Of a stretch of 64,000 nucleotides of DNA, positions 21,242-24,863 are shown piece after piece; position 1 is the stretch's first letter; every line of letters begins with the position of its first letter. The translations under genes and the position numbers were made by a program. The notes under the pieces were generated by a model, which was not told the origin of the DNA, searched no databases, and was given only the letters and a program-made list of their open reading frames with translations. Source of the stretch: Acarospora socialis (taxonomy: Eukaryota; Ascomycota; Lecanoromycetes; Acarosporales; Acarosporaceae); NCBI GenBank assembly GCA_025617375.2, contig JAMYGW020000003.1:1054001-1118000 (forward strand), in the 5' to 3' direction.

Positions 21242-22461
21242 GGGGTGGGGGGATGCGTGGATGCGTTCTTGGTGGAAGGGGTCGAGGTGGTGGGAAGGGA
21301 GGGATGGTTCTATGTTGGGTACGTTGTCGGGCATTTTGGATGGGAGGCTTGGTGTCAGTATGCCGGAGTGTAAAATCTGCGAGTGCAGAAGTCGTGAGGT
21401 AAGGTTTATGTATTTGTACGATTGACATCTCTTTGGCTAGCGACGGTACTGTATCTGTATGATAGTTTTTGTTCAGTCAGAACCTCAATCTCCATCCAAG
21501 TTGTGCTCCTTGCAAGAAGGAAGAGCCAATTCAGACATACTGCGAAACTGCTCACTGGAGTGATGTATGCGGCTGATGTGAAGGATGAAGGAATAGCGCT
21601 TTTAGAACATACGTGTCGACTCTGGACTGCGTTGCTGGGTTTAGTGCCTCATTGTGGCGGGATTTCGGACTCGACTCTGGCCGTGAGACTCCGTTTGGCG
21701 ACGAAGGATCAGGTTCCCAGCAGAGACACCTGCTCTCTGTTGAAGGATTGCGAGAGCCAGCAGCAGCATGTTTGGATTCGACATCGCCTCCAGGGTGGTG
21801 ATTGGTTAGCAGCAGGCCCCAGCTTTTAGTATCCAATCAAGTCTTTCACTATCTTCTTACTGGCGTATGTTTTAGTGCATGTGGCAGGTCGGTGTTCGGT
21901 CACTTTTTGCCTCCGTTCCTTCAAGCTGCGCATGAACACCTGTCGAGATACGTCCATCCCTTTGAAAGGAGCAGCTCAATGATAATATCACGGTAGCACA
22001 ACCTGTGCATTGGCCCATGAGCCTTTCCCAGTTGCTTCTGCACAAGGGTAAGGTAACACGAGACGGGGTTATTGATCTAGTGAGTACCTTACTTGGTAGG
22101 TACCTGAGAGTCGAGATCCACTCACTTCCGTTCGGTTATGGGATCGCCAGATCTTAGGCTTAGCGCAGGCTTTCCGCTAACTTACCTTACTCTACATGTA
22201 CGAGTAGGTAGGTACTTGTACCTCATCCACGGCCGGAAGGCTTGGGTCCCGAGACAATCAAAGTACAAGGTCTTGCCATTCCGGACTGCTGGTTGCATAT
22301 GCTAAAATGACTAATATAAGGTAGTTCTGAATTCTGGTTTTCTCATACAAATTGTGTCTGTGCCATCAGGAGTAGCGGATTTTCCATCTGCAACCAGCAG
22401 CCTGCAGTGTCGTGACCTGTAGGTACCTATCCTTGTAGTCACTTAGTTTAAGTAAAATTGG
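21242..22461. other. Intergenic stretch rich in GTACC words
   Basis: No gene was recognised. A 135-codon open frame at 21422-21829 has no domain or protein-like pattern. From about 22040 to 22230 words such as taccttac, ggtaggtacc and gtacgagtaggtaggtac recur on both strands. Confidence 0.5.
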
Positions 22462-22726
22462 AAGACTCCCATAATCCATGCGCCTGCATAAAAGACTCGG
22501 ATAGACAACGGCCCAAAGAAAAGACTTCTATAATACATGACAACCTCACTGTCGCCGAGATCTTACTATCAAAACACTTCAAATTATATCCCTATTACTG
22601 ACCCTAACAGCCTAACCCCCTAACCAACCTAACCCACCGCAACTGACCTAACCACCATATTGTGAACAATTCAGTGTTTTGTTTTATCCGAGTCTTTTAT
22701 GCAGGCGCATGGATTATGGGAGTCTT
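22462..22726. mobile_element. MITE-like inverted-repeat element
   Basis: Two perfect 42-bp inverted arms, 22462-22503 and 22685-22726 (arm 1 begins aagactcccataatccatgc), flank a 181-bp middle. There is no open reading frame inside. The middle holds a run of degenerate telomere-like cctaacc units at about 22600-22655. No clear target-site duplication was found next to the arms. Size and perfect arms fit a non-autonomous DNA transposon that moved recently, or a fold-back element. The family cannot be named from one copy. Confidence 0.8.
22600..22655 (+). repeat. Degenerate telomere-like CCTAACC run
   Basis: About seven irregular copies of cctaac/cctaacc spaced by 0-6 bases (for example gcctaaccccctaaccaacc). 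They resemble the fungal telomere unit TTAGGG read on the opposite strand, but are imperfect and internal. Confidence 0.65.
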
Positions 22727-23074
22727 TTACCCTAGGTTCAAAGCTCATCTTTTCAAACGAGCCATGAAGGATTGCGGAAGGAGCTCACTGCATGAGACAT
22801 CAAACATGCCAGCACTAAATCCAAGGGGAAGAGCCGACCATTTAGTCTGTATACTCGTGCACTAACAGTTGGGGCTACCCATCCCCTTTCTGTGCTGCTT
22901 TCCTTCTATATTCACCTGTTTTGGCCACTTACTGTCCTCTACTCGTATGATGCGACGAACTTACTTTGTATATAACTCCAAGAATCACCGTTGAACCTCA
23001 TTCTCTCACCTCTATGACCGTGAAGTACCTAAATCGTAGCACATCTCTGCGGATCGCTCCGAAGCTACTCAATC
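22727..23074. other. Upstream region of the P450 gene
   Basis: This 348-bp stretch between the inverted-repeat element and the P450 start holds no gene. The sequence tatataactcc at about 22968 is a possible TATA element some 105 bp before the ATG. The inverted-repeat element therefore ends about 350 bp upstream of the P450 start codon. Confidence 0.45.
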
Positions 23075-24863
23075 ATGGCTGTCGAATACTATCCACAGCT
23101 AACAGTCATTGTGCCTCTCTCTCTCGTTGTTGTGTACTTCGTCTACACTAGGCTCACCTCCAAACCTCTCATCCCCGAGCACGTCCCATGGGTCGGACGA
23201 CGCTCCGAGTTCTTTTCGAGAAGTCGAGCCAATCTCAGAAGCTTCGGACGGGGCCGTGAGCTGCTGGACGATGCTTACTACAAGGTACTTACATTCTCGA
23301 GGTCAAATACCAAGTTGAGAACGTAGCTGAACAGTATCCTAGTTCTCGAAACACGGCTTGAACTGTGTTCTCCCGACATTCCAGGGCGGCGAAGTTCTTA
23401 TTCCTCCTTCGCAGATACCGTGGCTACTCTCCCAACCCGAGCACGTTCTTAACACAAAGGAAGTTCACCGTGACAGCCTCGAGGCCGATTACACGATGCT
23501 GAACCGCAAGATGGTCCGTAGTCCAACCCACGAGGACGTGATTCGGAGGGATCTGACCAGACAGCTGGGAAACTTGACGATGGACATTATGGAGGAACTA
23601 GGTAGTGGTTTTGACCAGTACTGGGGCTTCGACACTGAGAACTGGAAGGAGGCCTGCGTGTATGACAATATGATGAAGATCGTTGCGAGGACTTCGAACC
23701 GGGTTATCGTGGGGCTCCCCCTATGTGAGTGACATGCTACTATACTCATGATGAATCGGAATTGCTGATAGCTATTAGGCCGCGACGAAGATTTCCTGAG
23801 GAGCGTGGCAAGGTTTTCACAAGACATTCCACTCAGCGGTCAAGTCATCAAACTCTTCCCACAATTCTTGAAGCCTATAATCGGACCGATCGCTGTGCTC
23901 CCGAATCGGTACCACCACCGCCAATGTGCCAAACACACCGTTCCGTTAGTAAAGCAAAGAATAGCAGACATGGAGAGGAAGCGACAAGACCCTGACTACA
24001 AGTACGAGGAACCAAACGACTTCCTGACGTGGCAGATCCGCGATGCCTTGAGACGAGGCGATCCATCCGAGCAGACGCCGGAAATGATATCTCGCCGCTT
24101 ACTCGTCGTCAACTTCGCAGCGATTCACACCTCCACTTTCACCGTCACCAATACCCTCATCGACCTGTTCAGCGCTCCCCCGGAGAAGGGCTACCTGGAA
24201 GGCATCCGCGAAGAAGCGCAAAGGGTTCTGAACGAGTACAACGGCGTCTGGACCAAACCCGGCTTGGCCAAGATGATCCGTGTCGACAGCGCCATCCGGG
24301 AGAGCATGCGTCTCTCGGGATTCTCAAGCCGAGGTCTAGTCAGGAAGGTCATCTCCGACGAAGGTGTCACGCTGGAGGACGGCTTGCATCTGAACAAGGG
24401 CACCAACATCGGCCTGTCCGCGTACTCCGTCCATCACGACGAAACCATCTTCGAAGATCCGATGACCTACGACGCCTTCCGCTTCTCCCGACCCCGCGAA
24501 GCCTTCGCCACGTCCCAGGACATCCCCATCGGCGACCTGACCGCCGACGAACAACCCCTCGCAAACGGCACGGCAACGGGAACGGAGAAAGGGGAGAACC
24601 TCACCGAGGTCCTCAAACACAAGAACCTCTCCATGGCCAGCACGGGCGAGACTTTCCTCGCCTTCGGTCACGGCCGCCACGCCTGTCCCGGACGCTTCTT
24701 CGCCGCCAACGAGCTGAAGCTTCTGATCGCTTACATGGTGCTCAATTACGACGTCAAGCCGTTGCCCGTGCGGCCGCGGAATGTCTGGTTCGGTGACACG
24801 GTTCTGCCGCCCATGAAGACTACCGTGCAGGTTCGACGGAGGAAGACCGAGGTTTCGGGCTGA
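23075..24863 (+). CDS. Cytochrome P450 monooxygenase
   Basis: Membrane-anchored heme monooxygenase, spliced from 23075-23284, 23343-23724 and 23779-24863 (558 aa). The N-terminus carries one hydrophobic anchor (LTVIVPLSLVVVYFVY) for the ER face. Near residue 372 is the K-helix ExxR (ESMR). The heme loop is FGHGRHACPGRF, with the axial cysteine at about residue 499. The I-helix region reads NFAAIHTSTFTVTNTLIDLF. This layout and the heme loop resemble the ent-kaurene-oxidase-like group of fungal P450s that act on terpenoid and other secondary metabolites. I cannot assign a CYP family or substrate. No synthase gene sits beside it; neighbours are a MITE-like element upstream and a DUF2434 gene downstream on the other strand. 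Confidence 0.95.

Follow-up and report, generated by a model that had tools for sequence, protein, structure and literature searches.

A slightly damaged copy of a probably Mutator-like MITE family with a CCTAAC-rich interior upstream of a P450 gene in Acarospora socialis

Structure of the locus

The window analysed here is a stretch of 64 kb of the Acarospora socialis genome (C3:1054001-1118000), and coordinates given without a contig are positions within it. It contains a P450 gene, whose ATG at position 23075 and open reading frame at 23808-24860, which matches the Pfam p450 family (E 2.5e-34), are joined into one gene by our own reading of an intron. Upstream of this gene lie two arms, at 22462-22503 on the forward strand and at 22685-22726 on the reverse strand, that are complementary at 42 of 42 positions and flank a spacer of 181 nt. 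When the window was scanned for perfect inverted repeats at least 18 bp long whose starts are separated by less than 1.5 kb, this pair alone was found, and the rough chance expectation of a perfect inverted repeat of 42 bp is about 1e-18. The fold predicted for the element strand has an energy of -101.6 kcal/mol, compared with a mean of -41.7 for shuffled sequences (z -14.7), and was equalled by 0 of 200 shuffles. The repeat is confirmed as real and not a product of chance, and the original prediction, which had described two identical 42-bp arms, is borne out in this respect.

The same prediction had placed the element at 22462-22726. The arms are where it put them, but the true right end lies six bases further, at 22732. 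The sequence and its comparison with the ends of other copies identify the right terminal hexamer, TTACCC, at 22727-22732 (reverse strand). On the left side, the six bases at 22456-22461 (forward strand) read AATTGG in place of the GGGTAA of other copies. The feature at 22462-22732 (forward strand) is annotated as a copy of a miniature transposon family, named F1, with a complete right end and a missing left terminal hexamer, on the evidence of 28 other places in the genome and of its ends. The likeness of its left arm to other copies continues beyond the perfectly pairing part, to about 22526. The start of the P450 gene had been put about 350 bp downstream of the element, which agrees with the 349 bp between the claimed span and the ATG and with the Pfam match of the downstream reading frame.

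A second inverted-repeat element, unrelated to F1, occupies 22264-22421 (no strand assigned), 40 bp upstream of the F1 copy. A genome search placed this repeat at 20 further sites (28 pieces altogether), and the six copies that were fetched all end in TACAGG...CCTGTA. One copy of it (C2:81445-81591) is nested in an F1 copy (C2:81206-81631). The promoter of the P450 gene therefore carries two unrelated repeats.

The F1 family and its relatives

A DNA search of the same genome (31.1 Mb, 38 contigs) yielded 91 matching pieces, which correspond to the window copy and 28 other F1 places. All 28 were fetched with their flanks; the pieces were grouped into places by us and the copy counts are lower bounds. 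This number of copies, which answers the suggestion of the original prediction to search for more of them, rules out a single-copy structural element within this genome. The proposal that the element is a MITE holds, because the family is multicopy and dispersed, has inverted ends and shows 9-bp target duplications in its better copies. The best full-length sisters of the window copy reach 86-87% identity, and among partial sisters identity is 91% over 188 of 265 query bases, 93% over 108 bases and up to 100% for single arms. A 21-base arm pattern allowing up to three mismatches occurs at 59 sites of the genome, compared with none for the reversed pattern used as control. For 22 of the 29 places, among them the window copy, the positions of both ends were established, and these 22 copies are the base of the counts that follow; L019, L023, L030, L031, L033, L035 and L036, with one or both ends not set, were left aside.

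The outer ends of F1 are GGGTAA...TTACCC. Read from the outside, an exact GGGTAA is found at 25 of the 44 ends, and at both ends in eight copies. The window copy measures 271 bp, and 21 of the 22 copies fall between 205 and 422 bp, the remaining one (961 bp) containing a nested insertion; with an interior too short for a transposase, F1 copies carry no such gene. The arm comprises up to three direct repeats of a unit led by AAAAGACT. In L017 these units start at positions 5, 35 and 64 of the arm, and in L009, at its other end, at 5, 34 and 63, which gives F1 arms a length of roughly 70-80 bp. The right arm of the window copy is one unit, about 29 bp, shorter than that of many copies, and this is why pairing ends at 42 bp. 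In the alignment the same unit is absent from L010, L011, L022 and L027, and the identical absence in these four copies indicates that the short right arm may have been inherited.

The nested insertion, in L012 (C1:451453-452413), is nearly 700 bp long, lies inside the tract and has inverted ends of its own, recognised by eye as TTATGGGC...GCCCATAA. Arm tips like that of F1 (GGGTAAAAGACT-like) were also observed with different interiors at L086:2993-3458, L090:2936-3227, L083, L084 and L088. The arms of L086 are alike over 75 bp at 91%, L090 matches L086 at 91% over 292 bp, and in L083, L084 and L088 one end only is present within 6 kb. An arm tip common to elements with differing interiors makes F1 one of several families that share their ends. 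Long AT-rich sequence adjoining the ends of L088 and L090 was considered as the remains of long, decayed F1 relatives and discarded, given that the L086-like sequence stops after 292 bp in L090. By eye, the AT-rich part of L090 looks like a retrotransposon.

Target-site duplications and base composition

With free offsets, a perfect 9-bp target-site duplication was found in 5 of the 22 copies and in none of 462 control pairings, in which the left flank of one copy was combined with the right flank of another. It sits exactly at the boundary in L013, L017, L020 and L021 and is shifted by one base in L011. When one mismatch was allowed the figures were 9 of 22 copies versus 6 of 462 pairings, and with two mismatches the test became weak (13 of 22 versus 79 of 462); with the boundary fixed and at most one mismatch, they were 4 of 22 and 2 of 462. 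Among the eight copies with both hexamers exact, the duplication was missing in L010, L012, L016 and L028, and recombination between copies could account for such cases. The comparison of flanks proposed in the original prediction has therefore revealed duplications in part of the family but none that is recognisable in the window copy, where TAGGTTCAA (22733-22741, forward strand), the expected right duplication site, has no clear left partner and the best flank match contains 3 mismatches in 9.

The flanks of the 22 copies are of ordinary composition (G+C 0.45-0.54, mean 0.50). The pooled indices of F1 are 1.04 for TpA/ApT and 0.99 for (CpA+TpG)/(ApC+GpT), values that by the usual thresholds would point towards RIP. 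These values are nevertheless not read as RIP, since C>T and G>A changes relative to the majority base (99) do not outnumber T>C and A>G changes (116), and the CpG level (0.83) is close to normal. A separate set of AT-rich repeats (L088:3100-6001, L090:3300-6001, L049 and L050) has 27-34% G+C, a CpG observed/expected ratio of 0.00-0.28, compared with 0.94 in the window, and an excess of CpA and TpG (1.34-1.57). These dinucleotide indices do not bear out classical CpA-to-TpA RIP in the relics, and the composition of the four repeats suggests a decay directed at CpG.

The CCTAAC-rich tract

The interior of the window copy contains a CCTAAC-rich tract at 22601-22653 (forward strand), with unit spacings of 8, 8, 9 and 19 bp. 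Exact CCTAAC occurs five times, compared with a mean of 0.26 in shuffled sequences, and 0 of 5000 dinucleotide shuffles reached five. The units noticed in the original prediction are real, although the figure of about seven is attained only when degenerate ones are included. All 22 copies contain CCTAAC, between one and six times each, several of them retaining just one or two that are exact. The tract has a common position in the rows of the alignment, including the diverged L095, and is very degenerate in L081. Sister copies carry it at the corresponding position, which implies that it was inherited with the family, while the number of units varies. Searched genome-wide with at most two mismatches allowed, a three-unit tract pattern matched eight sites, versus two in the control; six of the eight are within four F1 copies and the others are at C6:917911 (exact) and C11:400179.

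The origin of this tract can be read in several ways. Genuine telomeric DNA might have been captured, for example at a healed break, and then spread by the element. The abundance of CCTAAC units, far above chance, is in line with such an event, as is the telomere of the host, CCCTAA, with which 6 of the 12 contig starts examined open. Against it, of the 59 intervals under 40 bp between C[CT]TAA[CT] units in the 22 copies, 53 measure 8, 9 or 10 bp and none measures 6 or 12, and two adjacent CCCTAA hexamers, sought in the same copies, were found in none of them. This spacing and the sharing of the tract among sister copies make telomere capture very improbable, and of the telomere-like interior originally described the excess of units stands while a telomeric origin does not. 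Decay of a six-base telomere array followed by the gain of spacers retains some slight plausibility as a source. It is also very unlikely, though conceivable, that the CCTAACC tract has been kept as a cis-element which either the transposase or a telomere-repeat-binding factor recognises, in which case the family would have scattered sites for telomere factors into promoters, that of the P450 gene among them. The stretch is a short repeat common to the F1 family and probably not captured chromosome-end DNA, and most likely it would be passive cargo, a short minisatellite present in the founder of the family. A bacterial MITE that contains a minisatellite has been reported (PMC4596501); among the matches listed in the open-licence literature, none was a fungal MITE whose interior resembles telomeric sequence.

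Contigs C9 and C12 contain 22 and 24 CCCTAA hexamers, respectively, in their opening 3 kb (L045 and L048), in arrays that do not lie at the opening of the contig. An internal array of this kind means that other sequence lies outside it or that the assembly is chimeric.

Age of the window copy

The age of the window copy was examined on an alignment of 23 rows, composed of the 22 copies without L012, excluded for its nested insertion, and with L081 and L095 added. The two arms were compared in 21 copies, L024 and L095 not being comparable. According to the original prediction the element is young, with arms that had had no time to diverge, and a very recent insertion would indeed explain why the window copy has the lowest number of arm mismatches of the 21 (0 of 42, against 1-11 of 34-42 in the other 20) and no private change in 84 arm bases. 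The interior speaks otherwise, with 5 private changes in 192 positions, compared with 0 of 249 in L017, a copy with a perfect duplication, 2 of 232 in L013 and 3 of 229 in L009. Furthermore, the left hexamer has been lost, the best flank match has three mismatches and the genome holds no near-identical full-length sister, the closest being those at 86-87%. The private-change rate of the window copy is the 12th lowest of the 23 rows, and the contrast between its arms and its interior is not significant alone (no arm changes were found where about two were expected). A very recent insertion is therefore unlikely and the description as young is doubtful: the copy appears to be of middling age rather than the youngest, and its identical arms may reflect this moderate age together with chance or gene conversion.

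Mobilisation of F1

The window element is quite likely an old copy, with slight damage, of a non-autonomous MITE family that by its anatomy is Mutator-like (Hop/VdMULE). The assignment is made because the 9-bp duplication, the composite arms and the GG..AA tip resemble those of fungal MULEs, and it rests on this anatomy without a partner transposase. Target duplications of MULEs are described as 8-11 bp long (PMC6446971), a range that includes the 9-bp duplication seen in 5 of the 22 F1 copies. The long, repeat-bearing arms match the pattern described for fungal MULEs, whereas the tip agrees only loosely (GGGTAA versus GGNAA). A transposase supplied in trans would recognise the repeats of the composite arms, cleave at GGGTAA/TTACCC and integrate the element through a 9-bp staggered cut, and the window copy would have been inserted in this way before its left end decayed. 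The dispersed copies, the common ends and the 9-bp duplications in part of the copies are observed directly; from them we infer a Mutator transposase and its binding sites in the arms.

An autonomous partner was sought in the genome through the MULE, hAT and IS1595 families and through arm patterns, and was not found. The exact tip GGGTAAAAGACT occurs at 39 sites, versus 6 in the control, with facing pairs at most 961 bp apart. Two relics with a MULE domain (PF10551) are present, at C3:3010154 and C1:54147, both with stops; their loci have 28% and 34% G+C and are 87% alike over 2.6 kb. No F1 arms were seen near them, and a scan for arms tolerant of transitions in the two relic regions and four other loci detected none, the best score in the MULE regions being 9 mismatches in 45. 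The lack of a partner leaves some room for a DNA transposon other than Mutator, such as hAT or another group with 8-9-bp duplications, as the source of mobility. hAT target duplications are 8 bp long. Seven genome matches to the hAT domain exist, all with internal stops, and IS1595-type transposases gave none. Fungal MULEs are the better match for the 9-bp duplications, the long composite arms and the GG..AA tip, so that a non-Mutator mobiliser is rather unlikely and a Mutator-like enzyme is favoured.

The window copy is a real but ordinary transposon, from a family of a structurally known kind, and its interior only resembles telomeric DNA. F1 is a further, probably Mutator-type MITE family, accompanied by related families that share its ends, and at this locus two unrelated repeats have inserted into the promoter of a P450 gene. 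If the copies in the promoter do alter the expression of the P450 gene, this would be a usual case of regulatory change driven by MITEs. The tract also calls for caution, as short runs of CCTAAC are insufficient for calling telomeric DNA.

Comparison with known systems

Several described elements share features with F1, as far as the cited accounts describe them. The MITE families of Zymoseptoria are fungal and located in gene-rich DNA, and one of the thirteen has 8-9-bp duplications; their likeness to F1 is one of description (PMC4522978). The TBE elements of ciliates are, like F1, DNA transposons with inverted repeats and telomere-like sequence, but they have genes and carry that sequence at the tips of the arms, whereas in F1 it is internal, degenerate and periodic at 8-10 bp (PMC7325037).

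Closer in anatomy are the fungal elements Hop1 and VdMULE1-3, with arms of similar length, repeated units and a GG..AA tip. VdMULE1/2 have arms of 82-86 bp with three repeats of 15 or 17 bp and a GGNAA consensus in common with Hop1, and short defective VdMULE members are known, from 363 bp upward (PMC3441728). As described there, Hop1 and VdMULE1-3 encode a transposase and measure 3.4-3.6 kb, whereas F1 is non-coding and of about 200-420 bp; the F1 tip, GGGTAA, is one base longer than GGNAA, and one VdMULE has an 8-bp duplication compared with the 9 bp of F1 (PMC3441728). The Tm1 Mutator/Foldback elements of root-knot nematodes differ in their animal host, their asymmetric 7-bp end motifs and their known transposase-coding members (PMC3169594). 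Like F1, however, they combine composite arms with a repeated motif (about 14 bp in Tm1), 9-bp duplications and MITE-like members, and some of their copies are without duplications or end motifs (PMC3169594). Tm1 is a good structural parallel to F1.
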